A stretch of DNA of 64,000 nt, taken from assembly GCA_019114445.1 (NCBI GenBank), contig DXFL01000007.1, positions 1-64,000 on the forward strand, written 5' to 3'. Each line of letters opens with the position of its first letter. Positions within the stretch are counted from its first letter, which is position 1. Source of the stretch: Candidatus Barnesiella excrementigallinarum. GTDB lineage: Bacteria; Bacteroidota; Bacteroidia; Bacteroidales; Barnesiellaceae. Position numbers and translations under genes: made by a program. Positions 36,835-61,722 of the stretch are shown here, piece by piece. The notes beneath the pieces were generated by a model. It saw nothing but the letters and a program-made list of their open reading frames with translations, ran no database searches and was not told where the DNA came from.

Positions 36835-36902
36835 TAGAAGTGTGTATATGGATACTCGTTTTTCGGGGTTCTATTATTTTTGATAACCTAACCAATAAAC
36901 CT

Positions 36903-40955: not shown

Positions 40956-40990
40956 TACCCTTTGGACATTTGTCCCTATTTTGTGGACAC

Positions 40991-41027
40991 AATTACCCTA
41001 CGGCTCTTTGCCGATAGGGTAATTTTG
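40991..41027 (+). terminator. Terminator after HTCS gene
   Basis: A 10-bp outer stem AATTACCCTA/TAGGGTAATT with an inner CGGC/GCCG stem (one bulged A) is followed by TTGTAT. The T tract is short, so read-through into galM is possible. Confidence 0.6.
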
Positions 41028-41094
41028 TATATAAACCAAAGAACAACGATTTTTACTAATTCCCCGGTATGGCCGGGATACTAATGCAATGTTT

Positions 41095-42225: not shown

Positions 42226-42289
42226 AATTCACCTTATGCCGTTTATATTTGTGGACTGTTTGATACGATAGGGGTCTGCCGGCTGAAAA

Positions 42290-43442: not shown

Positions 43443-44108
43443 TTATTGCATATACGGTTGCAATACCTCTTTCCAAACCAAATAGGCGTCGCCCAGCAAA
43501 TGCAGGCCGTCGTTTGTGTAGGCGGGATTGAGTTCGGTGGTTCCCGGCGTGATCAAATGCGAATAGAGATCGATGTAGGTGCATTGCTCGCTCGCGGCGA
43601 GTTGTTCCAGTTTTTGGTTGATCTCGACAATTTGCGGCGCTTTTCCCACAATCTTTCGATATTGCCCGAACGAGTCGTTTGTAGGCAACATACTTTGTAT
43701 GTAGAGCTGTGTGGAGGGAGTCTCCTTTCGTATTTTTCTCACGATTTTTGCAATGTTCCCCACGATACTGTCGGTCGAGAGGTCGTGTGAGACATCGTTG
43801 ATACCTATCATTAAGAAAATCTTGGCCGGTTTACCCTGTACAATGGGTTCGAGCCGGTCGTATACGCCCATCGACACATCGGAACTGATACCCCGGTTTT
43901 TGATGTTGGGGTTGTCGAACAGTTCGTGCCACTCGCAGTTGTCGGTAATGCTGTTGCCCAAAAAGATGATGTCGTCGCTATCGACCGGCAGTTTCTCGAA
44001 CAGTGTGGCACGCTGGTAGTAATAGAGGTTGTAGTGATATACCTCTTGGGCGGTTGCCGCAACTGTTGCGAGGATTGCCGACAGGAAAAAAATCGAGATT
44101 CTTTTCAT
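43443..44108 (-). CDS. Secreted SGNH/GDSL-family hydrolase
   Basis: This 221-residue exported hydrolase has signal peptide 'FFLSAILATVAATAQ'. SGNH blocks are complete: I 'FLGNSITDNCEW' (Ser nucleophile), II 'NRGISSDVS' (Gly), III 'MIGINDVSHD' (Asn) and V 'NDGLHLLG' (Asp and His). The family holds esterases and acetyl-hydrolases. As the last gene of the MurNAc-salvage operon, 17 bases after murQ, a plausible role is removing O-acetyl groups from MurNAc or muropeptides before uptake. This role is inferred from context only. Confidence 0.85.
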   Translation of the reverse strand: MKRISIFFLSAILATVAATAQEVYHYNLYYYQRATLFEKLPVDSDDIIFLGNSITDNCEWHELFDNPNIKNRGISSDVSMGVYDRLEPIVQGKPAKIFLMIGINDVSHDLSTDSIVGNIAKIVRKIRKETPSTQLYIQSMLPTNDSFGQYRKIVGKAPQIVEINQKLEQLAASEQCTYIDLYSHLITPGTTELNPAYTNDGLHLLGDAYLVWKEVLQPYMQ

Positions 44109-44125
44109 GATGTCCGGGTTGACGA

Positions 44126-44953
44126 TTATGCATTGGGATTTTCGGCGTGGTAAGCATCTACGGCTTTTTTTACCGAACCATGCAGGAGCAGCAGGCGTTT
44201 GGCGTGTTCGTAATCCATGCCTAACTCTTCCGAAACCATGCGGGTACCGCGGTCCACCAATTTTTGATTCGAGAGTTGCATATTGACCATGCGATTCCCT
44301 TTTACACGTCCCAGTTGTATCATTACCGAGGTGGTAATCATGTTGAGAATCATCTTTTGTCCCGTTCCCGATTTCATGCGGGAGCTACCCGTTACATATT
44401 CAGGCCCTACGATCATCTCGATAGCCACATCGGCCTCTTTCGAGATGGGCGATTCGGGGTTGCTCGATATGGAGCCGGTGAGGATTCCGTGTTCGCGAGC
44501 CGCACGTAAGGCTCCGATAACATAGGGAGTTGTACCCGAAGCGGCAATGCCTATAACGGTATCTTTATTGTTGATGTGGTGTTCTTGCAATTCTTCCCAA
44601 CCGCGGTTCATGTCGTCCTCGGCATTTTCCACCGGGTTACGCAATGCAATGTCGCCACCGGCAATCAACCCGATAACCAGTGTGGGAGGCATACCAAACG
44701 TGGGCGGGATTTCCGACGCATCGAGAACTCCCAATCGGCCGCTGGTCCCGGCACCCATATAGAAGATACGTCCGCCTTGTTTCATACGAGGTACGATTTG
44801 GGTAACGAGTTTTTCTATTTGGGGAATGGCTTTTTGTACGGCCAAAGCTACTTTTTGATCCTCGGTGTTGATTTCTTGTAAAATCTCCAAGACCGATTTC
44901 TTTTCGAGATTGTCGTATAGCGAGGATTGTTCGGTTATTTTTACGAATGCCAT
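44126..44953 (-). CDS. murQ: N-acetylmuramic acid 6-phosphate etherase
   Basis: This 275-residue SIS-domain lyase cleaves the lactyl ether of MurNAc-6-phosphate to give GlcNAc-6-phosphate and D-lactate in the cytoplasm. Signatures are 'FYMGAGTSGRLGVLDASE' (SIS phosphosugar site), 'NPVENAEDD' with the catalytic Glu and 'TGSSRMKSGTGQKMILN'. Length fits the family (about 270-300). It follows the kinase gene by 18 bases, and the order kinase then etherase matches the murTKQ arrangement known from Tannerella forsythia. Its two products are covered: GlcNAc-6P enters amino-sugar metabolism, and D-lactate may be oxidised by the dehydrogenase encoded upstream. Confidence 0.96.
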   Translation of the reverse strand: MAFVKITEQSSLYDNLEKKSVLEILQEINTEDQKVALAVQKAIPQIEKLVTQIVPRMKQGGRIFYMGAGTSGRLGVLDASEIPPTFGMPPTLVIGLIAGGDIALRNPVENAEDDMNRGWEELQEHHINNKDTVIGIAASGTTPYVIGALRAAREHGILTGSISSNPESPISKEADVAIEMIVGPEYVTGSSRMKSGTGQKMILNMITTSVMIQLGRVKGNRMVNMQLSNQKLVDRGTRMVSEELGMDYEHAKRLLLLHGSVKKAVDAYHAENPNA

Positions 44954-44971
44954 AATATATACTGTTTGGTG

Positions 44972-45808
44972 TTATAAATTTGAATGAAACTCAATGAGCC
45001 CTTTCATAGGGCTTTTAATAATATTCCCCAGCTCTATTTGCAAGGCCAAAGCGGCCTCTTCGAGCACCTCTTTGTAATAATATGCGATAGAACCTATAAA
45101 ATGTACTTTTACATTTTTATAGTCGTATTGCATGACGTTGCGGGTGAAGAAACTCTTGAATCCGTTCAGCACGATTCGGTGAATGCAGGGTTCTTCGATA
45201 TTCTCGATAAGGAACGGCGATACCGATGCCAAGAAGCGGTTGGGGAAAGGTTTCTTATACACATTGTCCAAGATCTCTTGGGGCGTGAGGTTAAAGCGTT
45301 TGAAGAACTTCTCTTTCAATTCGGGCGTGAGTTGGTTTTTCAAGCAGTCGCCTACCAACAGTTTCCCTAAAACGGCACCGCTGCCTTCGTCGCCGAGGAT
45401 ATATCCCAACGGCGAAATGTTGTCGACAATATCTTTCCCGTCGTAATAGCACGAGTTAGAGCCGGTTCCCATGATACAGGCGATACCCGGAGTGTGGCCG
45501 CAGAGACTGCGGGCAGCAGCCAACAAGTCGCTCCCCACTTCGATTTTTACCGGTATATGGCGGTATATGGCTTTTTGTACGATTTCGTTTTTTTCGGGGA
45601 AAGCGCAACCGGCTCCGTAGAAATAGATGGCGTCGATAGGCATACCCTCCAAATGAGGTAAAAGTTTATCCTTTATGACAAGACTTATCTCTTCTTCGGT
45701 TTGAAAAAACGGGTTTGTACCTTCGGTAGTAATTTGTTTTACTTGGGTTCCTTGGTTTACTACACACCAATCGGTTTTGGTAGAACCACTGTCTGCAATA
45801 ATAATCAT
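44972..45808 (-). CDS. murK: BadF/BadG-type amino-sugar kinase, MurK-like
   Basis: This 278-residue ASKHA kinase has phosphate-1 motif 'ADSGSTKTDW', 'EGTNPFFQTEEEIS', an adenosine/phosphate-2 segment 'GIACIMGTGSNSCYYDG' and 'GYILGDEGSGAVLGK'. MurK-type kinases phosphorylate MurNAc (and often GlcNAc) at O-6, supplying MurQ. Its start overlaps the stop of the membrane-protein gene by 4 bases, and murQ follows after 18 bases, so translation is coupled. A GlcNAc-specific NagK role cannot be excluded by sequence alone. A diverged paralogue lies at 61751-62590. Confidence 0.85.
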   Translation of the reverse strand: MIIIADSGSTKTDWCVVNQGTQVKQITTEGTNPFFQTEEEISLVIKDKLLPHLEGMPIDAIYFYGAGCAFPEKNEIVQKAIYRHIPVKIEVGSDLLAAARSLCGHTPGIACIMGTGSNSCYYDGKDIVDNISPLGYILGDEGSGAVLGKLLVGDCLKNQLTPELKEKFFKRFNLTPQEILDNVYKKPFPNRFLASVSPFLIENIEEPCIHRIVLNGFKSFFTRNVMQYDYKNVKVHFIGSIAYYYKEVLEEAALALQIELGNIIKSPMKGLIEFHSNL

Positions 45809-46977
45809 ATCTTTATATATATTTTCTTTTTATACAAAACGTATCCTACAATCCAATTTACGCCTACGAACAAGAGCGCGAATACGAGCGACGCAAAAGT
45901 TTTGTCTTTGCACAAGGGCACGAGCCACTCGTTGTAAACCACACCTTTCAGCGTCATTAGTTCTCCGCCATAGGTGACGTAGATGTTTCCGATGAGAATG
46001 CTCAGTACGGCACCCAATACATACATGAACAGGGGATTGATACCGAATGCCTCGAAAAATCGGCTCCACTTTTTGTAGCCTTTGATGTCGATAATCCAAA
46101 TGAGCAGTGCCAAAGAGCTGGCCGCCAGTCCACAGGTGGTGAGGGTAAAGGTGGGCGACCATATTTTTTTGCTGATGGGACAACCATATTCGAGGAGCAA
46201 TCCGGCAAAAGTGAGTATGGTACCGGCAATAAAGAGGTTTTGCATTCGCACGGCGTTATCTTTTGTGCGCATGATGAGGCTTCCGCAGAATAGACCTATG
46301 AGCACGTGGCATATCGACGGTATGGTGCTGAGCAATCCTTCGGGGTCGAGGGCCAGCCCGTTGTCGTGGTACATATGGTTGGGACCCAAAACAGCCCGGT
46401 CGACTACCGAGATGATGTTGTCTTCGGAAAACTCAAACCCTTTCCCGGTAACCAATATCACGAAATAGGCCAAGAGGGTAACCACTACGATGTGCGGAAT
46501 GTATTTGTGTTTTACCAGCAATGCAATAAATGCGGCAGCCCCGTAACAAATGGCCAATCGGGGCATAACTCCCAGTATGCGGATATGGTCGAAATTCCAC
46601 ATGGCAGTACCTAAGCGCTCGAAAAAGGAGAGCGACTCTTCGCCCAGTTGGTGGTAAGTGCGCATGGTCAATCCCAGCCAAGCGATGGCCAAACCTATGG
46701 CAAAGATGACAATCGTGCGGCGAATGATTTTCCAAGCTACGGGCCCCGATAACTTAAAGTCGAATTTCCGCAACGACATATAAGTCGATATTCCCATGAT
46801 AAACATGAAGAAGGGGAAAACGAGGTCGGTAGGTGTAAGTCCTATCCATTCGGCATGGCCGAGAGGTGCATAAATATGGCCCCACGAGCCGGGATTGTTT
46901 ACCATAATCATTCCGGCTATGGTGATACCCCTCAGAATATCGAGGGACAGGAGGCGATTGCTGGGCGGTTTATTCAT
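45805..46977 (-). CDS. Multi-pass membrane protein, HGSNAT/DUF5009-like; MurT candidate
   Basis: This inner-membrane protein of about 390 residues has roughly ten hydrophobic segments. It opens with 'RLLSLDILRGITIAGMIMVN', the signature of the YeiB/heparan-alpha-glucosaminide acetyltransferase-like (COG4299/DUF5009) superfamily, then 'TPTDLVFPFFMFIMGISTYM'. In the MurNAc-auxotroph Tannerella forsythia the membrane protein preceding murK and murQ (MurT) is the MurNAc transporter, and this gene holds the same place. The start at 46977 lies 2 bases after the preceding stop; an upstream ATG at 47004 would overlap that gene. It could alternatively be an N- or O-acetyltransferase. Confidence 0.75.
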   Translation of the reverse strand: MNKPPSNRLLSLDILRGITIAGMIMVNNPGSWGHIYAPLGHAEWIGLTPTDLVFPFFMFIMGISTYMSLRKFDFKLSGPVAWKIIRRTIVIFAIGLAIAWLGLTMRTYHQLGEESLSFFERLGTAMWNFDHIRILGVMPRLAICYGAAAFIALLVKHKYIPHIVVVTLLAYFVILVTGKGFEFSEDNIISVVDRAVLGPNHMYHDNGLALDPEGLLSTIPSICHVLIGLFCGSLIMRTKDNAVRMQNLFIAGTILTFAGLLLEYGCPISKKIWSPTFTLTTCGLAASSLALLIWIIDIKGYKKWSRFFEAFGINPLFMYVLGAVLSILIGNIYVTYGGELMTLKGVVYNEWLVPLCKDKTFASLVFALLFVGVNWIVGYVLYKKKIYIKI

Positions 46978-46979
46978 GG

Positions 46980-49781
46980 TTATTGTTTTTTGGGCGTTGT
47001 ACATTTATCTACTAAGTAAACGATCGATACATAGGGTATCCCGGCGTTTGTGGTTAATCCTATCTCGCAGGTGCGGCTGTTGGAGTAACCCATTTTTACA
47101 CCGGCCTTTTCCAATTGCGGTTTCAACTTGCGCAGGGCATAAGCATTGACTTCGGGGTGGGTGAAGCCGCGGTCGCCGGCAAATCCGCAACAGCCCACCT
47201 CTTCGGGTACGATTACGTGGGTGGAACAGAGCCGGGCCAGCTCGACAAGCATATTACCCAAATTCATTTTCCGCATCGAGCAGGTGATGTGTACGGCTAC
47301 CGGGGTATCGATGGGCGAGAATATCAGTTTCTCTTTCAAGAAGGTATAGATAAACTCTACCGGTTCGTACAGTTTCACTTTGGTCATCACTTCGCGCATA
47401 CGGTGCAGGCAGGGACTTTGGTCGCAAAGTACGGGATATTCGCCTTCGTGACTGGCTTCGTATAGTGCCTCTTCGAGCTCGGCCGATTTGCGGTCGGCTA
47501 TATCCATCATACCTTTGCTCTCCCAAATGGTACCGCAGCAAAGGTTTTTCATATTCTTGGGGAAGATGACTTCATACCCGGCTTTTTGCAACAGGGCTAC
47601 GGTCTTGTCGATGAGCGGTGTTTGGTCGGGCGAATTTTTTGCCGTGCCCATTGTTTGGTTGATACAACTGGGGAAATAGACTACTTTCAACGGCTTTTCG
47701 CGTTGCTCTATCCGGTGCGGGTAGTAGGGCTTGGGCATAGCGGCGGTCCACAGCGGCAGTCCTAATCGGTGCAGTCCTTTGCCTATGGCACCCATCGATT
47801 TGCTTCCCAATAGTTTGTGCGCGGTGTCGGCCAAATAGAGTATGGGTCGCAATCCGGCTTTGGTGGCCGCAAAATGGTTGGCGACGAAATCGCCGGTTTT
47901 GTAGCCGATACTTCCGACCGGCAAATTTTCTTGTCGTATGTCGTGGGTAAGGTCGCCTACGTTTATTCCCATCGGGCACGACATGGAGCATAGCCCGTCG
48001 CCGGCACAAGTGGCGTTGCCCAGATATTTGTATTGCTGTTGCAGGGTGTGCAACCGCTTTTGGCTTTCGGGATCGTTGCTGTTTTTGAGCCGGGATATTT
48101 CCCGCCGGATCACGATACGTTGACGCGACGAGAGGGAGAAACCGCAGGTGAGGCAGTTTACTTCGCAGAATCCGCATTCGATACACCGGTCTACGTGGCC
48201 GTTGGTCAGCGGCATGGGCTTGAAATTCTTGATGTGGCAATGGGAATCGTCGTTGAAGATGACACCGGGATTGAGCAGCCCTTTGGGGTCGAACAGCTCT
48301 TTAACGGCTTTCATGTAGCCGTAGGCTTTTTCGCCCCATTCGTATTTTACGAACGGAGCCATGTTTCGACCGGTGCCGTGTTCGGCTTTCAGCGAACCGT
48401 CGTACTTGTCCACTACCAAAGTTTTCACTTCGTCCATCAGTTTTTCATACCGGGCTACTTGCTCGGGCGTGTCGAACGATTGGCTGATGATGAAGTGGTA
48501 GTTCCCTTCCAGCGCATGGCCGTAGATACAAGCGTCGTGGTAGTTGTTGGTTTCCAACAGTGTTTGTAAGTCGGCGGTAGCTTCGGGCAGGTCTTTCAAG
48601 GGGAAGGCCACATCTTCTATCAATACGGTGGTCCCTAATTGTCGGGTCCCGCCTACCGAGGGGAAAATACCTGAGCGGATAGCCCAGTATTTCGAATACT
48701 CTTCGGGCTTTTCGGTAAAGTGTATGGGAACCGCCGTTGCAAACGGGGTCAGTATTTTCTTTATTTCCTCGATGTGGGCTTGCAGCTCTTCGGGCGAATC
48801 GGCTTTGGTCTCGGTGAGTACGGCTGTCAAACCTTCGCCGGTGGTGTCGTTGACCGAGGCGAGCGATTTTTTGTCGAGCAGCTCGGCACTGAATACGGGA
48901 CCCGGTTTCATGGCTACTACGGCGCGGCAAGCCTCCTTGATGTCGGAAAAATAGAGCATGGCGCTTGCCGAGTAGGGGTAGTCGTGTTCGGTTTTCATCG
49001 TGACTTCGGAGAGGAAAGCGAGGGTGCCTTCCGAGCCTACCATCAGGTGGGTGATGATGTCGAACGGGTCGTCGTAAGCGACGAAGGGTAGCAAATTGAG
49101 GCCGGTCACATTTTTGATGGCATATTTTTTACGGATACGTTCGTACAAAATTTGGTCGTTTCGTATGGCGTCGCGTATCTCGACAATGCGGTTCAAAAAC
49201 GGAGCCCGGCTTTTCTCAAATGCTTGTCGGCTGGCCGGGTTGCCGGTGTCGAGCACCGTACCGTCGGCAAATACGATTCGAGCCGACAGCAGTTCTTTGT
49301 CGCTGTTGGCGTGGGTGCCGCAGTTCATGCCCGAAGCATTGTTCATGACAATGCCGCCTACCATAGCCGATTTTACCGAGGCGGGGTCGGGTGCGAATTT
49401 TCTGCCATAGGGTTTGAGTATTTCGTTCACACGCGACCCGATAATGCCCGGTTGTAAGGTTATTTGTTTGTGGTCGTCCGAGATGGAATATTTCTCCCAG
49501 TTCTTACCGGCAACGATAAGAATGGAGTCGCTTATGCTTTGCCCCGATAGTGATGTGCCGGCGGCCCGGAATGTCACAGGCAGTTCGTATCGGTGTGCCA
49601 GCGCGAGAAGGCGGGACACTTCTTGCTCGTCTTTCGATCGGATAACGATTTTCGGGATCAAACGATAAAACCCGGCATCGGTACCCCAAGCCAACAAGCG
49701 AAGTTCGTCGGTATATATCCGTTCTTTGGGGATAAACTTGCCGGCCTCTTTTAGATAAGCGTTATATTGTTGTTCTTTCAT
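46980..49781 (-). CDS. FAD/Fe-S D-lactate dehydrogenase-like oxidoreductase
   Basis: This 933-residue fusion has an N-terminal FAD_binding_4/GlcD-type domain (about 45-270, 'RAAGTSLSGQSISDSILI', 'NNASGMNCGTHANSD', 'VGSEGTLAFLSEVT') and a FAD-oxidase C-terminal domain ending near 'HGTGRNMAPFVKYEWG'. Two 4Fe-4S clusters follow ('CIECGFCEVNCLTCG', 'CAGDGLCSMSCPMGIN'), then CCG domains ('LCCGTIWESKG', 'HITCSMRKMN', 'EVGCCGFAGDRGF'). This is the architecture of quinone-linked D-lactate/D-2-hydroxyacid dehydrogenases. It sits between namZ and the murT-murK-murQ genes, so the simplest role is oxidising D-lactate released by MurQ to pyruvate. Glycolate or other 2-hydroxyacids are possible alternatives. 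Confidence 0.88.
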   Translation of the reverse strand: MKEQQYNAYLKEAGKFIPKERIYTDELRLLAWGTDAGFYRLIPKIVIRSKDEQEVSRLLALAHRYELPVTFRAAGTSLSGQSISDSILIVAGKNWEKYSISDDHKQITLQPGIIGSRVNEILKPYGRKFAPDPASVKSAMVGGIVMNNASGMNCGTHANSDKELLSARIVFADGTVLDTGNPASRQAFEKSRAPFLNRIVEIRDAIRNDQILYERIRKKYAIKNVTGLNLLPFVAYDDPFDIITHLMVGSEGTLAFLSEVTMKTEHDYPYSASAMLYFSDIKEACRAVVAMKPGPVFSAELLDKKSLASVNDTTGEGLTAVLTETKADSPEELQAHIEEIKKILTPFATAVPIHFTEKPEEYSKYWAIRSGIFPSVGGTRQLGTTVLIEDVAFPLKDLPEATADLQTLLETNNYHDACIYGHALEGNYHFIISQSFDTPEQVARYEKLMDEVKTLVVDKYDGSLKAEHGTGRNMAPFVKYEWGEKAYGYMKAVKELFDPKGLLNPGVIFNDDSHCHIKNFKPMPLTNGHVDRCIECGFCEVNCLTCGFSLSSRQRIVIRREISRLKNSNDPESQKRLHTLQQQYKYLGNATCAGDGLCSMSCPMGINVGDLTHDIRQENLPVGSIGYKTGDFVANHFAATKAGLRPILYLADTAHKLLGSKSMGAIGKGLHRLGLPLWTAAMPKPYYPHRIEQREKPLKVVYFPSCINQTMGTAKNSPDQTPLIDKTVALLQKAGYEVIFPKNMKNLCCGTIWESKGMMDIADRKSAELEEALYEASHEGEYPVLCDQSPCLHRMREVMTKVKLYEPVEFIYTFLKEKLIFSPIDTPVAVHITCSMRKMNLGNMLVELARLCSTHVIVPEEVGCCGFAGDRGFTHPEVNAYALRKLKPQLEKAGVKMGYSNSRTCEIGLTTNAGIPYVSIVYLVDKCTTPKKQ

Positions 49782-49803
49782 CTCGGTGGGTTAAAAACAA
49801 AGT

Positions 49804-51036
49804 TTATTTATAGAGGTAATATTTGCGGGAGAGGTTTTTGAAATCCTCTACGTCCTTATACCAATAGTCTTTGATGTCGTCGAAACGGTAGTTTTTAGAG
49901 AACCGTTCGCGTATTTGGTTGCTGCCGCATACTTTGTCGAACATATCGAATCGTTTTTCGGTCTCTTTGCCAAACGCCTTTTTATCGGGATACATGGCAG
50001 CCAGTTCCTGTAAGATGTAGAATTGGACTTCGGAGAGCCGAGCCTTTTTGTAGTCGAGGATATGGACTTGTACTCCTTGCAGGTGTTCTCCCTGACCGAA
50101 AGCATAGAAGGGTTTGAGGTGCATGGGGCGGAATTTGATACCCGGCAGGTCGAGGGCATTCATGCGGTCGGCCAGTTTTTCGGCGTCGATCCATTGTGCC
50201 GCAAACATTTGGAAGGGTATGGTGTATCCCACGCCTATCGACAGGTAGGGCAGTTCGCCTACGATACCCGACAGGGGATAGAAATAGGCCGAATGGGGGT
50301 GGGGAATATGCGGCGAAGAGGGAATCCATTGCAACCCCGTTTGGGTATAATCCATGCTACGTTTCCAGTGCTTCATGGGTACGACCGTGAGGTTGCAGTC
50401 CTTAGCCAGCATATGTTCGCCTACGAACATACGGGCGAGTTCGCCACAGGTAAGTCCGTAGATATAGGGTATTTTGAATTGGCTGACAAAAGAGAAGTAA
50501 CCGTCCTCGACGATATTGCCTTCTACTTTTTCGCCGCCTATGGGGTTGGGACGGTCGAGCACGACAAATTCTATCCCGTTTTCGGCAGCGGCTTCCATAG
50601 CTACGCCCATAGTGCTGATGTAGGTGAACGAGCGGCAGCCTATGTCTTGTATGTCATAGACGAGCACGTCGATATCTTTGAGCATTTCGGGGGTAGGCTT
50701 CCGGGTCTTTCCATACAGTGAATAAACGGGGAGTCCGGTCGAGGGGTCGGTCGAGTTGTCCACTTTATCGCCGGCGTGTACATCGCCCCGTACTCCGTGT
50801 TCGGGTCCATAGAGGGCGACTAAGTTTACGTTGGGCGCTTCGAACAGAATATCGATGGTCGATTTCAACGAATTGTCCACGCCGGTGGGATTGGTGATGA
50901 GACCAACTCGTTTACCTTCCAATATTTTGAAATTGTCTTTTTTCAGAACTTCGATTCCTGTCATTGTTTTTTGTGCGCTCAATGCTCCTGCTGTAATTGC
51001 AATAAGGCACAAAATTATATACTTTTTTAATTTCAT
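49804..51036 (-). CDS. namZ: Exo-beta-N-acetylmuramidase NamZ-type (DUF1343, GH171)
   Basis: This 410-residue exported protein of the DUF1343 family has signal peptide 'IILCLIAITAGALSAQ'. Conserved blocks are 'GKRVGLITNPTGVD', 'LYGPEHGVRGDVHAGD' (a likely catalytic Glu in the EHG motif), 'VYDIQDIGCRSFTYISTM', 'LDRPNPIGG' and 'SPHIPHPHSAYFYPLSGIVG'. NamZ of Bacillus subtilis, the founding GH171 enzyme, removes MurNAc from the non-reducing end of glycan strands. Its place beside the AmpG-like and MurT/K/Q-like genes fits release of MurNAc for uptake. It lies 16 bases after the AmpG gene. Confidence 0.9.
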   Translation of the reverse strand: MKLKKYIILCLIAITAGALSAQKTMTGIEVLKKDNFKILEGKRVGLITNPTGVDNSLKSTIDILFEAPNVNLVALYGPEHGVRGDVHAGDKVDNSTDPSTGLPVYSLYGKTRKPTPEMLKDIDVLVYDIQDIGCRSFTYISTMGVAMEAAAENGIEFVVLDRPNPIGGEKVEGNIVEDGYFSFVSQFKIPYIYGLTCGELARMFVGEHMLAKDCNLTVVPMKHWKRSMDYTQTGLQWIPSSPHIPHPHSAYFYPLSGIVGELPYLSIGVGYTIPFQMFAAQWIDAEKLADRMNALDLPGIKFRPMHLKPFYAFGQGEHLQGVQVHILDYKKARLSEVQFYILQELAAMYPDKKAFGKETEKRFDMFDKVCGSNQIRERFSKNYRFDDIKDYWYKDVEDFKNLSRKYYLYK

Positions 51037-51052
51037 AGACTTTTCTTTTGTG

Positions 51053-52918: not shown

Positions 52919-52928
52919 GGTTTATGTT

Positions 52929-54233: not shown

Positions 54234-54241
54234 AAGCAGCA

Positions 54242-55171
54242 CTATTTGAGTTTTTCTATGATTTCATACATCTTTTCCCTACTGAGGCATACCTCCGAGA
54301 GAATTTTTTCGAGGTGCTCGGCACCGATTTTCTCGAAGTCTTTTTCGAGGGGGGTGATGAATACACCACCCATATCGACCGATGCGGGGCTGAGCAGGAT
54401 ATTCTCGTCGCCTTCGGCAAAGTAGCACGAGGGGCGATGCTGGGCTCTTGGGAAGATACAAGCTATCCATTTCCCGTTTTCATACCAAGCGAGGAGGTTC
54501 ATCATGGGTTCTGTTTCGCCTTCTTTCTGTTCGAGTGCGTGATAAAGCCGTCCGAACAGTTTTTCGGCGTCTTCGGCCTTCTCGGCTTCGATCAGGAAAA
54601 ACGGGCATACATAATCTTCTACTTGGCTCAGCCGGGCAGTTCCCTCGCTACGGACAGGAATGAGCCGGCAATGTTTAAGGGCTTGTTCGAGCGGCAGGAA
54701 TCCTTTGTTCCCGGCTTGGAAGTGGGCGTGGTCGGGTGCCGAGGCTCCGCATTTAGGCCCGTTGTAGAACAGCACATAGTTGTCGGCAGCTTGTGCGAGA
54801 CCGAGCATATCGCCGAATCTCTTTTCGATGAGCTGGGGCAAATGTTCGTTTACGGGAATGGTGAAGTGTTCGGGGAAGATGGGGAAGGGGTTGATGAGCC
54901 ACGTATAACCGCCGGCCGGAAGTCCTTCCTGCACTTCGGGACGGTTGGCGGCACACAAAAAACATTTGCGCTCCTTCAACGATTTCGTATCTACTTTGGC
55001 GGCCGACGAGACGATACGTGCCGGGTTGAACTGCACCTTTACCATGCAGTTCCCCAGCGATACCTCTTTGACGCGTACCGATTCCAATGCTTTGTAGTTG
55101 TTACGGGCCGACTCCCATGCGGCGAGTTGGCTGGTAAGCAGTTGTTTGGCTTGTTGCGATGTGACACTCAT
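54242..55171 (-). CDS. DUF4922 protein, HIT/GalT-like nucleotidyltransferase fold
   Basis: This 309-residue cytoplasmic protein resembles GalT/Ap4A-phosphorylase members of the HIT superfamily. It has a Cys pair in 'KERKCFLCAANRP', the substrate strand 'LINPFPIFPEHFTIP' and the catalytic-type 'APDHAHFQAG' (HxHxQ). GalT-like enzymes transfer or release nucleotidyl groups on sugar 1-phosphates. It lies between a glycosyltransferase gene (5 bases upstream) and the SpoIID gene (stop and GTG overlapping). It may prepare or break down a nucleotide-sugar tied to cell-wall salvage; the reaction is not known. Confidence 0.75.
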   Translation of the reverse strand: MSVTSQQAKQLLTSQLAAWESARNNYKALESVRVKEVSLGNCMVKVQFNPARIVSSAAKVDTKSLKERKCFLCAANRPEVQEGLPAGGYTWLINPFPIFPEHFTIPVNEHLPQLIEKRFGDMLGLAQAADNYVLFYNGPKCGASAPDHAHFQAGNKGFLPLEQALKHCRLIPVRSEGTARLSQVEDYVCPFFLIEAEKAEDAEKLFGRLYHALEQKEGETEPMMNLLAWYENGKWIACIFPRAQHRPSCYFAEGDENILLSPASVDMGGVFITPLEKDFEKIGAEHLEKILSEVCLSREKMYEIIEKLK

Positions 55172-55176
55172 GGCAA

Positions 55177-56634
55177 TTATTTTTTATTCATGGCTACACG
55201 AGCTTGCAACTCCCAGGTGCGAATGCGGTCTTTGTACAAATTGTTGGCGTTCATCTTCTCGATGCTCAACGAAGCGTCGGAGTTGTCGTCCCAGCGACGG
55301 CACAGATACACAACGTCGTAGATACGGCCTATTTGGAAATGGCGTGAGATGTTCAATCCCAAAGCGTAGTCTTCGCCGTAGCTTGTGTTAGGCACTTTTA
55401 CTTGGCGCAACAACGGGGTGTAGAAGGCGCGGGGCGCACCCAACCCGTTGATACGGAGTGCGTTGTTTCGTCCGTTTTCGGGGGTCCACTCTTTGTGGTC
55501 GATAATGCCCGGAGCAATCATGTTCATGTTGAAGTCGGTCATCATGTAAGTACCTACCACCATGCCGCAATTTTGCTCGTAGAACGCGTTGACCATAGTT
55601 TGCAGGGTGTTTTCGCTGCTGTATACGTCGTCGCTGTCGAGCTGTACGGCAAATTTACCGCATTTGGGGTGGTGTACACCCATGTTCCAGCAGCCGCCTA
55701 TGCCCAAGTCGTTCCGCTCGGGGATAATGTGGATTACCCGTTCGTCGTGGGCGAATTTGTCTATGGCTTCGGTGGTACCGTCGGTCGAATGGTTGTCGAT
55801 GATAATGAGGTTGAACTTGAAATTGGTTTTTTGGGCCAGCACCGAGTTGATGGCGTCGGCAATGGTGCGAACACGGTTGCGCACAGGGATAATGACCGAA
55901 GCTTCGTATTCGAAATCGCCTTTGTCGAATTCGATCTTTTCAAATACGGGTTCGAGGTATCCGCCAATCTCTTTGAGGTGTTCGGTGCAGGCCGCTTCCA
56001 TTTCTATTTGTACGCCGCGGTTTTTGGGGTCTACATAGTCGAATATTTTTTCTCCGCTCTTGCGCGTGTCGTTTTCGACCTCGGAGTAGAGGAATTCGTT
56101 CATGTGGACCAGTGATGTTTTTTGTGATAATTTCAGACGGAGGTCATAAAGGCCAGCAAATTGGAAGTCGGTTTTCATACGGGAAACGGCCTCTTTGAAT
56201 GCAGCGGCGTTGAAGAGAAGCAGCGACCCGAAGTTGAAGTCGTCGCGCAAGCTGCCGTATTGGTAGTCGATGACCGGGGCTTTTTGTTGTTGGCCGTCGA
56301 CCACGTGATAGGAGTCGGCATATACCATTCCGGCGTGGGAGTCTTCGGCGATATGGACCATACGTTCGAGGGCGAAGTATCCCAGTTCGAGGGTGGTGTA
56401 TTTGGTGTAGAGCAGCGTGAAGTCGGCATCGCTGTGGGCTGCCAGCAGGTGCATGGTGGCCGACGCATTGAGTGCGGGGATATGGAGAACCTCGCAGCCT
56501 TCTACTTGTTCGTTGCTCTTTTCGGTGGAGAGCAGGTAGATGTTCTTTACATATTCACAGTTGTGCAGCCCTTTGAGGGTTTCTGCTACTTGATCCTTGT
56601 TCGAAAAAGGAATGAAACAGTTGATTGTTTGCAT
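55177..56634 (-). CDS. Family 2 glycosyltransferase with duplicated GT-A-like domain
   Basis: This 485-residue cytoplasmic protein has a complete GT2 domain in its C-terminal half (from about 243: '[18 protein letters not shown]', '[15 protein letters not shown]', DxD-like '[13 protein letters not shown]', acceptor-site '[13 protein letters not shown]'). The N-terminal half (about 1-225) looks like a second, degenerate GT-A fold ('[20 protein letters not shown]', '[14 protein letters not shown]'). The sugar donor and acceptor are unknown. It is co-transcribed with, and only 5 bases before, the GalT-like gene, so the two may work on the same nucleotide-sugar. Confidence 0.85.
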
Positions 56635-56654
56635 AGTGAAAATTATTTGTTGTT

Positions 56655-58508
56655 TTATTTATAATCGATGACCAGCAGGCCTATTTCGCCGCCCGTGGCG
56701 GTAAAGAGGCATTCGTTTTTCGACAGTGGCACGAGGGTGCTGATGAGCGAGTTCCCTACTTTGTGTTTCCACAGGAGTTCTCCCGTGCGGGCATCCAGCC
56801 CGAACATCAACCCGTTTTTGGTGCTGCCGAATACGACACCCTCTTTCTCGACGGGCATCGAGGGGGCGTGTTCGTATCCGAATCCTACATTCGAGGCCCA
56901 TATCTTTTGGGGCTCGGACGATACGGCAGAGTAGCATACCACGCTGTCGTTCATGGTTTTGCTATAAATGCGCTCGTTGTCTTCCGACAACCCTACGGTT
57001 TCGCGTACCATCGATTCGGCGGTGCGCCACACGGTTTCCCCGGTCTGGGCATCGATAGCGGTCAATACCCTTTCGGGGTCGGCGATAAATACCTTGCCGT
57101 TAGCCGCTACGGGCCATACGGCCGCTGCCGAATAGAATTTTCCGGGTTTGCCTTCGTGCCATCTCCATTGTTCTGCTCCGGTTTTTTTGTCGAGGGCATA
57201 GAGGTTTTTATCCCATGCACCGAAGATGACGAGGTCGTTGTAGACAAGAGGTTTGGTTTCGATATAGCCTTCTACCCGGTCGTAGCACCATATCTCTTTG
57301 CCCGATTTGATGTCGATGGCTCTGAAACAGTGGTCGCTGCCGCCTATGTAGGCTATTCCGTCGTGAATGGTGACGGCTCCCAGAACGGGGGCATCGGTAG
57401 CGATTTTCCATCGTAACTGTCCGTTCGAAGCGTCTATACCGTATATGTTCATGTCGGCGGAGCCGAATACGACTGTGTTTTTATCGGCGGCCGGGGTTCC
57501 TATGATACGCATGGCCGATTTGAAACTCCACAGCTTTTCTCCGTCGGCAAGCGAATAGCAGGTGAGGGTTCCCGAATCGTCGCCTACATACACCTTTTTG
57601 TCCCAGCAGGCGGGCGACGAGAATATTTCATAACCGCTTTGTACGAGCCATTGCTCTTTTACTTGCGGATATGCTTGGTTGACCGAATAGTCGGGGCGGG
57701 GATATCCGGTGTTGCTTTCGGGGAAACTTTTGCCGGTCATGGCGTATGCTCCCCGGCGGACGGGGGATTTACCTATTTGGTGTTCGTATACGATAATGGA
57801 ATCGGGAGTAACCTCGCACAACGAGTATCCGCCAACGGCTTCTTTGGCCCGTAAATTCGAGCGGCACAGGATTCCGGGAATGCCGTCGTATTGCAGTTGC
57901 ATATATTTGTGGTAATGGCCGCCCATGACGAGCCTGATATTGTAGGGCCGCAGGGCATCGGTTACATCGTACCAGTTGTCTACATCGCCCGGTTGGAGGG
58001 GGTAATGGGTGACGAAGATTACCGGTTGTTCTTTCCCGGCTTGGGCGAGTGTAGCTTCTATCCAGTCTATGTCTTGCGGTGCCACGTGGCCGTCGGCCAT
58101 GCGGATAATAGGCCCTGAGTTGACCCCTAAAAACAGAATGCCGCCGTGTTCGAATTGGAAACGTTCGCTCCCGAATACCCGGGCAAAATCGGTTACTCCC
58201 GATTCGCTCCATTTGGTTTCGTGATTGCCGGGGACAATGTAGTATTTGACGGTGAGCCGGTCGAGCAGCGATTTTACCACTTCCATCGACCGCCGGTCGC
58301 CTATGTTGGTAATATCGCCCGAAATGATGGCGAAATCGACACCTTCGGTGGCATTAATTTGTGCGACCGATCGGGCCAAATCGTTGTAGGGGAGTGAATC
58401 GCCGGCCGTGATGTGTATGTCGGTGAGGAAGGCAAATTTGAAATTTGCCGCATGGCTGCCGGTAAAGGCAAGTATTATAAGCAGGAGTGAGAGATGAATT
58501 CTTTTCAT
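56655..58508 (-). CDS. Secreted metallophosphoesterase fused to PQQ-like propeller
   Basis: This 617-residue exported protein has signal peptide '[15 protein letters not shown]'. The calcineurin-like phosphoesterase domain (about 24-280) keeps all metal-binding blocks: 'FLTDIHIT', '[10 protein letters not shown]', 'VPGNHETKW', 'VTHYPLQ' and 'VMGGHYHKY'. The C-terminal part (about 320-617) is a PQQ-type beta-propeller with repeats such as '[20 protein letters not shown]' and '[18 protein letters not shown]'. It is probably a periplasmic phosphodiesterase or phosphatase with a binding propeller; a teichoic-acid-like, nucleotide or phospholipid substrate could all fit. It lies 3 bases after the amidase-like gene. 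Confidence 0.85.
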
Positions 58509-58511
58509 GGG

Positions 58512-61502
58512 TTATCGATTGTTTGTTGATGTTTCGAACGTCGACAAGATGGCTTGCATGAAGGCATCGCGTTGCGTTTGGGTCTTTATGGTCTCAAAGG
58601 GGTACCCTGCGATACAGGTATCGTAGTTGTCGCCTCGGTAAAAAATGGCGGCGCTGATGTTGTTTTCGCCGTAGCGTTGTATCGTGTAACTGCCTTTCCC
58701 GAATGGCTCTATCCCGTCGGGCGATTCTACGGCATAACATTTTTCGTTGAGGGTGTTGAAATATTCGAGGGATAGGTGGTCGAACAGGACGAAGGGCGAA
58801 GCCGCCGGTTTCACCTTGCCGCTTATCGAGGCTTGCCCGGTGCGCCATGTGTAGTGCAACACTTCGTTGGCAAATTTCTTGTCGCTCTCGTTTGACGTGC
58901 CGTTGTCCCACAAATCGGTGGCGACGTAGGCTCCCGATACGAACAGTTTCCGTCCGCCGTCGCAGTAGTCGGCGATGGCTTTTTGCAACGCTTCGGGGAA
59001 GGTCTTGAACATGGCTTTTGCTACTCCCCGACCTATATTTACCTGTTTCTCTTTCCCAAGAATCAAGTCGGCAATGCGGTAATCGTTAAGCGGAACCAAT
59101 TGTTCGGTTATGGCTTCGTCGCTGCTCGACAGGAACGAGTATCCGGCATTGACAATCGATTGGCCGTGTATGTAGGGGTAGTCGAATGTATTCCCGGCAA
59201 TGACTTGGGTTTCGTAGTTGGCTCGGCTGGCTCCGAATCCCGGATTGTCGTCGTCGAGCCACGGTATTTCGCGGCGGAATTCATATTGCTCGCCGATGAA
59301 ACTGATGTCGTAGAGGTAGGGTACCCCGAAATCTTTGCGGGTGTTGAAGCCTGCGGTGAGGGTGTCGGTTTGGAAACTGTCGGGGGCGCTTATGCGGTCG
59401 AATCCGTTAATGACCATGACGATACCTTTTTCGTGCGAGGCTCGGCAGAGCGACAGCGTTTCGGACGGGAAACTCTCTCCGCCGCGGTTTACAGCCGTGA
59501 CCTTGAAACTGTAAATCGAGTCGGGCTGTATACGGACGGTAAAGGTGGTGTCCGATACGAGAGTGCCGTTGTCGAATGCTCCGTTGCCTGTCCGGGTGTA
59601 GACGATGTATTTTTCGGGCGAGGCTGTGGGCTCCAACGGGTCGTCGACAGGTCGCCAAGCGAGGGTCGCTTCGTTCTCGCCGGTGAATGCGGTGCGCAAG
59701 TGGCTTACCGGCAGGGGTTGTATGAGGTAGTCGCGATCATTTTGTTCGGCGATGAATTTTACAATTCCCTTGTAGATGGCTCGCGAGACTAAGAAACGGA
59801 ACCGGGGATCGAGACCGTAGCGCATATCGGCGAAATTCTGGTGGGAGAGCAGTTCGAGCAACATGGTGGGGACTTCGGGCGTGCGGGCTTCGAAGTAGGA
59901 TTTGTTCCACATACCGCGGCGGCTCCATTCGGGTTCGTAGTTTTTGCGAATGTCGTCGGTGATTTGGGTGAGTATCAAGTCGGTAAGATAGCGCGATGCC
60001 TGCCGGGATATGTTGTCTCCATAGGTTTTTCGCTCTTTCCCGGTGAAATAGATTCCCAGACTTCCTATGATCGAGTCGTTTTTGGTGGTTCCGGCGTCGG
60101 AGTGGAAGGCAAAAGCGAGGTCGATGGGCACGTTAAGGCCGATGCTGTCGGGGAGTACGGCCGAGCCTCCGGCCAAGTAGTTGACCCATTCGCCCCGGCA
60201 TTTATAGTCGTCGGTATAGTCGTTTGTTCCCTCGCTGGGCGAGTATACTTTTTCGGGGAATCCGGCCCATTGCAACCAGTAGCGTGCGGCTTCGGTGAAG
60301 CGGGGGTATCCGCTGGTAGTCGGGGTATAGTTTATGGCCGGGGCAAGGGTTTGATTGGTTTCTGCCGGCGATGGCTGCCGGGCGATATTACCGTATCCTC
60401 CGCCTATTTTTACGGCGTCGGCCGTGATGATTTTCCCTTTTTCACGGGAGAGATTGCTCAATTCTATGCGGGCTTCTTGGTTCCCTTCGAAATCGAAATG
60501 TCCTAAATAAATCCACGTGCCCCCTCCCATTGTTTGGTTTACTCTGAATTGCGTTTCACCACCTTTGTGAACGACGGTATAGAGCGCGTCGTCGGTACTG
60601 TTTTTAACGGTTTGGTAGGCTACGTAAACGGCATATTTCCCGGTTTGGGGAATATGGGCAACCCACCGGGCGGCTATGGCGTGAGCCGGGTGGGTGGTGG
60701 TAGTGGTTGTGCGATAAGTGCCTTGTTCGAACGGATTTTGTCCTTGTGTATATACCTCGGTGGTATGGGCGAATCCCCGGCCTCCGTTTTGCCAGTTATA
60801 TTTTTCGTTAGCCGTTTCGGTATAGGAGGCGGGATTGTCGTTGTCGGCAATGAGTTCGTGGACGTTGATGTCCCGTTCGCGGGGCGAAAATACATAGGCT
60901 CCTGCGTTTTCGAGCATGGGGGTAAGGAAGGGTATGACGAAACTTTGGGTGAAGAGGTCTTCGACCGTTTCGAAAATACGGGCGCGTTGCCACTCCCAGC
61001 GGTTAAGCGATTGTTCGAAGTAGTATCCGTGGCTTTGCCAGAGGGCGATGTGCCGGTTGAGCAGCCCTTTTGTGGGTGGATATAGCCGGGTTATGGGCGA
61101 AACCACCGGGTGGTCGCAATGCGTGGCAAATTTTGCGTGTTTGTCGGCAAAGGGGATTAGCTGGCTTATTTCATAACCGCCGGCACAAATGGCAAGTTTT
61201 TTCTTTTTGAGATCTTGGGGGAGGAGGGCACGAACAGAGTCGTACATATCCTTGACAAGCTCTTCCCGAAAGGGTAGGTAGGAAAACTCGTCGTTCATTT
61301 CGACGGTGAGCCGGTTGTTTTTCTCTACCACCAGTTTTTTTAGTTTTATTTCTCCGATATTCAGATATTTGGGCTTGAAAGAAACGAGCGATTTTTCTAT
61401 CGCACTTTCCGTCGGGGTTAACTCTTGCGAATATCCGCTGAGGACTATCGACAAGACGATTGCAAAGGACAGAAAATATTGTTTCTTTTTCATGGTTTTC
61501 AA
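58512..61502 (-). CDS. Amidase_3-like N-acetylmuramoyl-L-alanine amidase split by golvesin domain
   Basis: This 996-residue exported protein has signal peptide 'FLSFAIVLSIVLSGYSQ'. Residues about 100-215 look like the first half of a zinc amidase_3 ('IALWQSHGYYFEQSLNRWEW', 'ENAGAYVFSPRERD'). Residues about 225-370 are a golvesin/xanthan-lyase-type binding domain ('GGGTWIYLGHFDF', 'GKIITADAVKIGGG'). The amidase resumes at 'LAFAFHSDAGT' (His 467) and ends with 'EVPTMLLELLSHQNFADM' (Glu 550). A fibronectin-III-like domain (about 600-690) and a long C-terminal domain follow. If active it would strip stem peptides from glycan, making substrate for SpoIID and NamZ. It is the first gene of the 12-gene operon. 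Confidence 0.75.
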   Translation of the reverse strand: MKTMKKKQYFLSFAIVLSIVLSGYSQELTPTESAIEKSLVSFKPKYLNIGEIKLKKLVVEKNNRLTVEMNDEFSYLPFREELVKDMYDSVRALLPQDLKKKKLAICAGGYEISQLIPFADKHAKFATHCDHPVVSPITRLYPPTKGLLNRHIALWQSHGYYFEQSLNRWEWQRARIFETVEDLFTQSFVIPFLTPMLENAGAYVFSPRERDINVHELIADNDNPASYTETANEKYNWQNGGRGFAHTTEVYTQGQNPFEQGTYRTTTTTTHPAHAIAARWVAHIPQTGKYAVYVAYQTVKNSTDDALYTVVHKGGETQFRVNQTMGGGTWIYLGHFDFEGNQEARIELSNLSREKGKIITADAVKIGGGYGNIARQPSPAETNQTLAPAINYTPTTSGYPRFTEAARYWLQWAGFPEKVYSPSEGTNDYTDDYKCRGEWVNYLAGGSAVLPDSIGLNVPIDLAFAFHSDAGTTKNDSIIGSLGIYFTGKERKTYGDNISRQASRYLTDLILTQITDDIRKNYEPEWSRRGMWNKSYFEARTPEVPTMLLELLSHQNFADMRYGLDPRFRFLVSRAIYKGIVKFIAEQNDRDYLIQPLPVSHLRTAFTGENEATLAWRPVDDPLEPTASPEKYIVYTRTGNGAFDNGTLVSDTTFTVRIQPDSIYSFKVTAVNRGGESFPSETLSLCRASHEKGIVMVINGFDRISAPDSFQTDTLTAGFNTRKDFGVPYLYDISFIGEQYEFRREIPWLDDDNPGFGASRANYETQVIAGNTFDYPYIHGQSIVNAGYSFLSSSDEAITEQLVPLNDYRIADLILGKEKQVNIGRGVAKAMFKTFPEALQKAIADYCDGGRKLFVSGAYVATDLWDNGTSNESDKKFANEVLHYTWRTGQASISGKVKPAASPFVLFDHLSLEYFNTLNEKCYAVESPDGIEPFGKGSYTIQRYGENNISAAIFYRGDNYDTCIAGYPFETIKTQTQRDAFMQAILSTFETSTNNR

Positions 61503-61689: not shown

Positions 61690-61722
61690 AAAAAAAAGCA
61701 GAACCGGGGCATACGATTCTGC
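61690..61722 (-). terminator. Terminator of second kinase gene (minus strand)
   Basis: GCAGAA/TTCTGC pairs and, on the minus strand, is followed by eight T residues (61690-61697). It separates the kinase gene from the 12-gene operon. Confidence 0.85.

Follow-up and report, generated by a model that had tools for sequence, protein, structure and literature searches.

The stretch of DNA analysed here (the window, 64,000 nucleotides of contig DXFL01000007.1 from Candidatus Barnesiella excrementigallinarum) contains between positions 43443 and 61502 twelve open reading frames packed on the minus strand (Table 1). A sequence-only reading had named twelve tightly spaced genes there; the ORF check of the window located all of them, and Pfam and NCBIfam profiles back the twelve identities, some with scores below the curated cut-offs. 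Eight of the eleven junctions are gaps (3, 20, 5, 10, 16, 22, 18 and 17 bases) and the remaining three are overlaps (1, 25 and 4 bases), a spacing compatible with a single transcript. Two genes probably start three codons further in than their open frames: the amidase-like gene at 61493 instead of 61502 (TTG) and the SpoIID gene at 54233 instead of 54242 (GTG).

Table 1. Genes of the cluster and the kinase gene adjoining its upstream end
Product	Positions	Strand	Support
Second MurK-like kinase	61751..62590	-	K1058-like by position and identity
Amidase-like protein with golvesin-like insert and fn3, secreted, zinc	58512..61502	-	Golvesin_C E=3.7e-26
Calcineurin-type metallophosphoesterase with PQQ/BamB-type beta-propeller, secreted	56655..58508	-	profile match
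GT2 glycosyltransferase, predicted cytosolic	55177..56634	-	Pfam GT2 E=7.2e-23
DUF4922 protein, Ap4A-phosphorylase/GalT-like, HIT superfamily	54242..55171	-	PF16269 E=1e-62
SpoIID/LytB-fold protein, predicted cytosolic	52929..54242	-	TIGR02669 E=3.7e-51
AmpG-like muropeptide/disaccharide permease, long form	51053..52918	-	TIGR00901 E=7e-48
NamZ exo-beta-N-acetylmuramidase, secreted	49804..51036	-	NamZ_N E=3e-88, NamZ_C E=7e-41
FAD/Fe-S dehydrogenase, GlcD-like and GlpC-like halves	46980..49781	-	profile matches
MurT-like inner-membrane MurNAc transporter, HGSNAT/NagX-like	45805..47004	-	HGSNAT_cat E=1.1e-5, over cut-off
MurK MurNAc 6-kinase	44972..45808	-	phmmer vs 8oqw E=2.9e-109
MurQ MurNAc-6-phosphate etherase	44126..44953	-	TIGR00274 E=4e-98, 328 bits vs cut-off 302
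SGNH/GDSL hydrolase, secreted	43443..44108	-	PF13472 E=1e-18

The claim that these genes form a peptidoglycan/MurNAc salvage operon is upheld, and MurT, MurK and MurQ match Tannerella forsythia with BLAST identities of 61.5% (against the gene at the murT position), 58.9% and 78.9%, respectively. MurK scores 31.3 bits with BcrAD_BadFG, just below the cut-off of 31.5. It keeps at the lactyl pocket, as does the T. forsythia enzyme, the Ser-Pro-Leu motif described as conferring MurNAc specificity (PMC10465942); the second kinases carry RSG (window) and RAG (T. forsythia) at that position. The permease reaches 163 bits with TIGR00901 (curated cut-off 350) and passes the MFS_1 cut-off. Unlike the T. 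forsythia AmpG (437 residues), it bears a long insert of about 187 residues, without Pfam match over cut-off and placed by eye in a periplasmic loop; in the main comparison set, 80 named DUF4922 loci, 25 of 71 AmpG frames have at least 600 residues. The FAD/Fe-S protein is predicted to be a cytosolic oxidase of the D-lactate released by MurQ. Among the 44 loci that span at least 20.7 kb, 21 have its gene; MurQ is in view in 19 of the 21, and the other two end 141-153 bases past MurK.

Among the secreted products, the first one is predicted to be an N-acetylmuramoyl-L-alanine amidase. Its residues H158, E181, H467 and E550, which we take to be the zinc ligands and the catalytic Glu of the Amidase_3 motif, are invariant in 25/25 aligned relatives; nevertheless, the name is restricted to amidase-like, because the Amidase_3 profile stays under its cut-off (E=0.0018, 18.8 bits versus 27) and covers only the sub-region 59703-60317. 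A hydrophobic N-terminal segment is present in 35 of its 38 relatives, and it is 54.5% identical to a T. forsythia protein labelled 'xanthane lyase' (PMC5388701). NamZ shares 71.3% identity with its T. forsythia counterpart. The SGNH hydrolase is possibly a sugar O-acetylesterase, and a homologue follows MurQ in two loci (L063 and L068); the named loci end short of this position.

The operon itself is not new, most of its genes being known from T. forsythia. The precedent invoked in the earlier reading, murTKQ, was correct as far as it went, but it is wider: the operon Tanf_08345-08385 of strain ATCC 43037, mapped in this analysis onto locus L126, comprises nine genes transcribed as one unit according to RT-PCR (PMC5388701), and all nine have counterparts in the window in the same order (first gene, GT2, DUF4922, SpoIID, AmpG, NamZ, MurT, MurK and MurQ). 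The window adds the SGNH hydrolase, the metallophosphoesterase-PQQ gene, not found between the operon genes of L126, and the FAD/Fe-S gene, not found between NamZ and MurT there. Gene order is widely conserved in relatives: the first eleven genes of the window stand in identical order in 11/80 named loci, including those of Bacteroides fragilis S82 (L079) and B. ihuae (L070), a type of locus that ends 1-428 bases past MurQ, before the SGNH position.

The folds of GT2, DUF4922 and SpoIID, the trio at the centre of the operon, agree with expectation. GT2 has an N-terminal part of about 240 residues, the first 239 without Pfam match; its DSDD (333-336), GED (420-422) and RRW motifs are invariant in 31/31 unfused proteins, and its PDB profile match is chondroitin synthase (2z87, E=5e-16). 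The AlphaFold2 model of DUF4922 (pLDDT 93.5) finds in Foldseek yeast Apa2 as best match (4i5t, E=2e-11), and H148-x-H150-x-Q152 and C70/C73 are invariant in 46/46 proteins. DUF4922, despite being only about 18% identical to Apa2, shows both marks of the Ap4A phosphorylases and GalT, the HxHxQ motif and a fold shared over nearly the whole protein, and from sequence and model it is predicted to be a cytosolic nucleotidyl-transfer enzyme. SpoIID matches 4rwr (E=2.5e-26) and shares the fold and the catalytic Glu region with the Clostridioides difficile and Bacillus anthracis SpoIID proteins (5i1t, 4rwr). E121 and C182-A-D-D-H-C187 are invariant in 44/44 proteins, and its C-x3-H-C motif resembles the SpoIID zinc site. 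It differs from those proteins in having more conserved cysteines, in the lack of a detected signal or anchor and in its fusion to DUF4922 in some relatives.

The linkage of GT2, DUF4922 and the phosphoesterase had been considered functionally unexplained. The phosphoesterase is present in 20/80 named loci. GT2 and DUF4922 belong with SpoIID and AmpG to a conserved core. GT2-DUF4922 are in order in 75/80 named loci (74 tight). The four genes GT2-DUF4922-SpoIID-AmpG keep this order on a single strand in 61 loci, and in 53 of these no gap exceeds 400 bases. DUF4922 and SpoIID are fused in ten of the 80 loci, and in five more the whole trio is one polypeptide, with no murTKQ in view; a second set of 25 loci, partly overlapping the first (L029 and L095 lie on contigs of equal length), adds three double fusions and one GT2-DUF4922 fusion. 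AmpG adjoins the triple fusion in four of the five loci and lies 953 bases away in L137, while the other nine query genes were not detected within the 2.3-8.5 kb on either side. SpoIID is not in view in 10/80 loci, six of which show AmpG (L075, L089, L094, L107, L114 and L136). Among 119 genomes of the order an AmpG-like gene is present in 26/26 with DUF4922 versus 11/93 others, and independent pairs are concordant in about 6 cases and discordant in 0 (median p 0.03). MurQ, counted at E<=1e-37 with weaker SIS-domain matches excluded, occurs in 24/119 genomes; in G058 and G088 the match lies in a fragment. Of these 24, 15 have DUF4922, in eight on one stretch with MurQ or within about 10 kb, so the association of the neighbours with murTKQ in relatives stands; the core also occurs without murTKQ, 11 of the 26 DUF4922 genomes having no MurQ. 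That the trio with AmpG is a conserved core and one functional unit is well supported, and the trio is widespread in Bacteroidota.

A different function would be biosynthetic: DUF4922 would make or exchange an NDP-sugar, GT2 would build from it a surface glycan or a modified muropeptide, a cytosolic SpoIID would trim or bind the product, and the co-transcribed salvage genes would supply the sugar. GT2 retains the motifs of a forward enzyme, and the PDB profiles that it matches best belong to GT2 enzymes that polymerise or transfer; moreover, the operon of T. forsythia has been described as glycosylation-related and as dependent on GppX, and loss of GppX affects surface proteins (PMC5388701). 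Nevertheless, the five triple fusions stand with AmpG, none of the other query genes being detected around them, and AmpG is an importer in T. forsythia (PMC7670621), which makes the biosynthetic role somewhat unlikely.

The location of the trio was assessed by a simple hydrophobicity test (threshold 1.6 over 19 residues), which separates the controls. No signal-like or membrane segment was detected in the window GT2, DUF4922 and SpoIID; a hydrophobic N-terminal segment is found in 7/71 SpoIID relatives versus 55/56 NamZ relatives, and none of the SpoIID fusions (13 double, 5 triple) reaches the threshold, the highest value being 1.55 (L127). Without a signal-like segment, SpoIID is predicted to be cytosolic, and a cytosolic location of the whole trio is well supported. 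Since relatives moreover carry it in one chain with a nucleotide-handling enzyme, its assignment in the sequence-only reading as a glycan cutter outside the cell does not seem tenable, and we call it a SpoIID-fold protein rather than a lytic transglycosylase of the envelope, as no sign of an envelope location was found. Described SpoIID proteins do act in the cell envelope (PMC6635528), and export by a route hidden from the hydrophobicity test would allow SpoIID to cut denuded glycan outside, the fusions being the exception; with segments so rare relative to NamZ and all 18 fusions below threshold, this is highly improbable.

Recycling of the E. coli type uses AmpG, NagZ, AnmK and MurQ. The operon has AmpG-type import and MurQ in common with it, and differs in its separate kinase MurK and in the steps between: AnmK (PF03702) and a cytosolic GH3 NagZ were found neither in this genome, 93.6% complete, nor in that of T. 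forsythia, and the pathway can hardly be called complete, as it had been. The search for a cytosolic hexosaminidase covered family GH3, where all six proteins of this genome have export-type N-termini, as do 28/28 from four trio genomes (three of these segments, below 1.6, were judged by eye). T. forsythia needs AmpG to grow on GlcNAc-MurNAc and GlcNAc-anhydroMurNAc; according to the same source no AnmK ortholog is predicted there, and the processing of AmpG-imported fragments and the use of anhydroMurNAc without AnmK are stated to be open (PMC7670621). The organism reached an OD of about 0.8 on lytic-transglycosylase digests versus 1.3 on muramidase digests, and the authors discuss that it uses free anhydroMurNAc poorly (PMC7670621).

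Within the order AnmK and DUF4922 are anti-correlated (Fisher p=7e-13). This exclusion was not accepted at face value, since an RpoB tree of 113/119 genomes (six without usable rpoB were left out) shows mostly one clade behind it, and the ancestry-corrected pairs, about 2.0 concordant and 0.1 discordant, are not significant (median p 0.5). In a phylum sample of 247 genomes the contrast runs in the same direction, with AnmK in 16/37 DUF4922 genomes (3 of the 37 are of this order) versus 155/210 others (p=4e-4, ancestry ignored; the count excludes weak matches in G164, G273 and G297, whose frames have 166-184 residues). A strict replacement of AnmK by the trio is false, because both coexist in many genomes: in these 16, in 2/26 DUF4922 genomes of the order and in 6/20 searched trio genomes (this one and 19 behind named loci).

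The synteny with AmpG, the fusions, the lack of export signals and the failure to find AnmK and a cytosolic GH3 NagZ suggest that the operon serves peptidoglycan/MurNAc salvage of the T. forsythia type in which the trio processes AmpG-imported disaccharides, a reading for which we see the chances as evenly balanced. The secreted amidase-like protein, NamZ and perhaps the SGNH hydrolase would strip and trim cell wall material, either foreign or the cell's own. MurT would import MurNAc, and AmpG would import GlcNAc-MurNAc and GlcNAc-anhydroMurNAc, a transport demonstrated in T. forsythia only. By analogy with T. forsythia and E. coli work, MurK would phosphorylate MurNAc and MurQ would convert it to GlcNAc-6-P and D-lactate, the latter being oxidized, presumably, by the FAD/Fe-S protein. 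The trio, as a soluble cytosolic set, would turn the imported disaccharides into MurNAc. SpoIID would open the 1,6-anhydro ring with water, its lytic-transglycosylase fold working in reverse; the fold can use water, since one SpoIID homologue is described as a muramidase on denuded glycan (PMC6635528). GT2, also in reverse, would pass GlcNAc from GlcNAc-MurNAc to a nucleoside diphosphate, and the Ap4A-phosphorylase-like DUF4922 would swap the nucleotide for phosphate to give GlcNAc-1-P. The disaccharide would thus be split phosphorolytically, with the bond energy saved as GlcNAc-1-P, and the MurNAc released would go to MurK/MurQ or, where these are absent, to an AmgK-type kinase. This full chemistry, by which the trio would stand in for NagZ and AnmK after import by AmpG, is a tentative hypothesis, somewhat unlikely as a whole, and a GT2 running in reverse inside the cell would be unusual. 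The loci with no SpoIID in view, the coexistence of AnmK with DUF4922 and the weaker growth of T. forsythia on lytic-transglycosylase digests also count against the reading.

The trio might also serve another salvage step, in which, for example, GT2 and DUF4922 convert the imported disaccharide directly into an activated product for wall synthesis, such as UDP-GlcNAc, while SpoIID, as a reverse lytic transglycosylase, transfers onto an acceptor instead of hydrolysing. Activated sugars from a scavenged disaccharide would be useful to T. forsythia, since it is reported to be without glmS, glmU, murA and murB (PMC5790795), and MurB was not found in its genome here either. MurB is however present in the trio-bearing genomes of the window, of B. 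fragilis S82 and of Prevotella sp. ne3005, and we regard such a step as unlikely.

The genomic evidence makes the trio a strong candidate for the step stated open in T. forsythia (PMC7670621). If the trio does process the disaccharides, common Bacteroidales of the gut and mouth would have a recycling route not described before, in which SpoIID is cytosolic and DUF4922 gains a function; in the open-licence literature, covered by titles and abstract starts, no description of the trio, of a cytosolic SpoIID or of a DUF4922 function was found. The natural fusions make the hypothesis testable with one purified protein.

Regarding transcription, the second kinase, whose T. forsythia counterpart on L126 is 60.5% identical, lies upstream in both organisms, on the strand of the operon only in the window. 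It was considered as an operon member and set apart, given the opposite strand in L126, and it probably has its own transcript, because a terminator-like hairpin (61722-61698) separates it from the operon and a Bacteroides-type promoter match (62731-62700) precedes it. A sigma-70 promoter scan was uninformative, with 20 sites versus 21.1 expected. The hybrid two-component gene at 36840-40955 was likewise considered, as a GppX-like regulator of the operon; it more likely belongs to a separate polysaccharide locus, because an epimerase gene and a GH43 gene lie next to it on the plus strand.

Twelve minus-strand genes lie in the window exactly where the sequence-only reading had placed them, and each of the eleven junctions is either at most 22 bases long or a small overlap. 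The gene names are backed by profile matches, some of them under the curated cut-offs. The assembly containing the window amounts to 2.6 Mb and is 93.6% complete. The precedent that had been named, murTKQ of Tannerella forsythia, does exist, but it is wider than stated and comprises a nine-gene transcript that includes AmpG, NamZ and the trio formed by the GT2, DUF4922 and SpoIID genes. According to PMC5388701, Tanf_08345 to Tanf_08385 are a single transcript by RT-PCR, labelled in order 'xanthane lyase', two glycosyltransferase genes, lytB, ampG, ybbC, murT, murK and murQ. The T. forsythia contig locus L126 reads amidase-like, GT2, DUF4922, SpoIID, AmpG, NamZ, MurT, MurK and MurQ, hence the second 'glycosyltransferase' of that transcript should be the DUF4922 gene. 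Compared with the T. forsythia operon, the window has additional phosphoesterase-PQQ, FAD/Fe-S dehydrogenase and SGNH hydrolase genes. Neither of the first two is unique to the window: the gene order, whose conservation the earlier reading had proposed to look for, is unchanged over the first eleven genes in 11 of the best 80 of 571 DUF4922 loci (B. fragilis, B. ihuae, B. clarus and B. oleiciplenus among them), all of which stop short of where the SGNH gene would show. The operon framed as a salvage pathway is mostly known already, and the genes that this framing left over are the finding.

Of 571 relatives confirmed in a scan of genome contigs with a DUF4922 alignment, the best 80, nearly all from Bacteroidales, were analyzed; DUF4922 being the query, the counts measure what accompanies it. 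GT2 is found in 77/80 loci, AmpG in 71, SpoIID in 70, NamZ in 48, MurK in 45, the amidase-like gene and MurQ in 38 each, MurT in 34, the dehydrogenase in 30, the phosphoesterase-PQQ in 20 and the second kinase in 8, the values for far genes being lower bounds, because many loci end at contig ends and the 10-kb flank barely reaches MurQ in operons of the window type. Among the 44 of these loci spanning at least 20.7 kb, GT2 is present in 44, AmpG in 43, SpoIID in 39, MurK in 35, MurQ in 31, NamZ in 30, the amidase-like gene in 27, MurT in 26, the dehydrogenase in 21 and the phosphoesterase-PQQ in 16, and nine show no MurK and no MurQ within the visible stretch. The order GT2-DUF4922-SpoIID-AmpG is kept in 61 of the best 80, with all gaps at most 400 bases in 53. 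Among 19 short loci newly fetched from a phylum sample (the best-scoring ones, flank about 1.5 kb), GT2 stands beside DUF4922 in 13, in 12 of them within 120 bases.

The DUF4922 model (pLDDT 93.5) retrieves yeast Ap4A phosphorylase as the top Foldseek match (E=2e-11), followed by a DUF4931 protein and GalT-type enzymes; the profile by itself also matches Apa2 (E=3e-7), and the HxHxQ motif is invariant (46/46). SpoIID matches the structures of B. anthracis and C. difficile SpoIID and retains E121 and CADDHC (44/44), and GT2 retains DSDD, GED and RRW (31/31). DUF4922 and SpoIID occur as a single frame in 10 of the best 80 of 571 loci and in three of the second set of 25 (L043, L047, L051). In one natural fusion (L103, modelled with pLDDT 88.7) each half retrieves the same structural relatives as the separate proteins. 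GT2 is fused to DUF4922 in L048, and five loci with Prevotella or Prevotellaceae in their titles (L137, L143, L144, L146, L149) carry triple GT2-DUF4922-SpoIID frames of 1226-1235 residues with AmpG alone of the remaining query genes in view.

Compartments were predicted from the most hydrophobic 15-residue stretch of the N-terminal region (with ample room allowed upstream, threshold 1.6), leaving aside fused proteins and those whose alignment begins after residue 60; the measure is simple and untrained as a predictor, and its controls are well separated. A segment of at least 1.6 was found in NamZ (55/56), amidase-like (35/38), phosphoesterase-PQQ (20/21) and SGNH (2/2) proteins; the counts for MurQ, MurK and the dehydrogenase were 1/59, 3/64 and 0/32. 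The trio gave 2/90 for GT2, 1/87 for DUF4922 and 7/71 for SpoIID, which had been taken for a glycan cutter outside the cell. A 19-residue scan of the whole length reached 1.6 in one of 71 unfused SpoIID frames (L113, 1.62) and in no fused protein. In a fused chain, SpoIID would lie in the same compartment as two proteins that handle nucleotides.

Neither the genome of the window nor that of T. forsythia gave a match to AnmK (PF03702), which is present in 6 of 20 trio genomes searched. The GH3 proteins detected in the window genome (6), T. forsythia (3), Prevotella sp. ne3005 (10) and B. fragilis S82 (9) all begin with an export-type segment, the call being made by eye for L277, L288 and L289, which score 1.27-1.57. 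That leaves two cytosolic activities to which no known gene corresponds, and three conserved genes, predicted to be cytosolic, that have no function assigned. According to PMC7670621, T. forsythia grew more weakly on digests made with lytic transglycosylase. The conserved, sometimes fused and predicted cytosolic trio lines up with a step declared open in print.

The sample of the order comprises 119 genomes, of which 26 carry DUF4922, 24 MurQ, 80 AnmK and 37 an AmpG-like gene. AmpG occurs in 26/26 DUF4922 genomes versus 11/93 others (ancestry-corrected pairs about 6 concordant, 0 discordant, median p 0.03), MurQ in 15/26 versus 9/93 (3.7 to 0, median p 0.125) and AnmK in 2/26 versus 78/93 (2.0 to 0.1, median p 0.5). 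AmpG carriers miss AnmK in 24/26 cases with DUF4922 and have it in 9/11 without, as raw counts with few independent pairs. On the corrected pairs, therefore, the association of DUF4922 with AmpG holds, and its anti-association with AnmK is merely suggestive.

GT2 enzymes are inverting, so in the proposed mechanism the GT2 of the trio, working in reverse on a beta-1,4-GlcNAc linkage, would yield an alpha NDP-GlcNAc. An Apa2- or GDP-galactose-phosphorylase-like partner would convert this to GlcNAc-1-P. GlcNAc-anhydroMurNAc is a product of lytic transglycosylases, and for this reason an enzyme of that type may bind it. Water could serve as acceptor for the SpoIID fold, since PMC6635528 shows muramidase action of a SpoIID homologue on denuded glycan. 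Downstream, in the organism of the window, MurNAc would pass to MurK/MurQ, and the D-lactate released by MurQ would feed the FAD/Fe-S dehydrogenase, which has lactate- and glycolate-oxidising enzymes among its nearest solved relatives. Two Prevotella genomes (G120, G121), which show no MurK or MurQ in the visible neighbourhood of the trio, contain reading frames of the APH family, 526 and 554 residues long and presumably AmgK.

Features in and around the operon
Feature	Position	Strand	Remark
Hybrid two-component regulator (1371 aa), then aldose epimerase, then GH43 protein	36840-43273	+	probably a separate polysaccharide-utilisation locus converging on the operon
Operon	43443-61502	-	twelve genes
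MurT	45805-47004	-	by profile, HGSNAT/NagX sugar N-acetyltransferase-like membrane family
AmpG insert	51851-52411	-	about 187 residues, no Pfam match over cut-off
Hairpin	61698-61722		strong, terminator-like, then eight T; between second kinase and operon
Second kinase gene	61751-62590	-	60.5% identity to the T. forsythia kinase upstream of its operon
Protein with type IX secretion sorting tail	62841-63950		upstream of second kinase
Second NamZ gene (L002)	G000:C9:15650-16249		elsewhere in the genome

The gap that separates the second-kinase gene from the operon also contains TATATTTG, an element resembling the Bacteroides -7 box; hairpin and element would set the kinase off from the operon. 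Its T. forsythia counterpart we take for K1058 of PMC10465942. The family of MurT is an odd fit for a pure transporter role. AmpG frames reach at least 600 residues in 25/71 (best 80 of 571 loci), the remainder being mostly of about 440. The second NamZ gene recalls the NamZ1/NamZ2 pair of T. forsythia.
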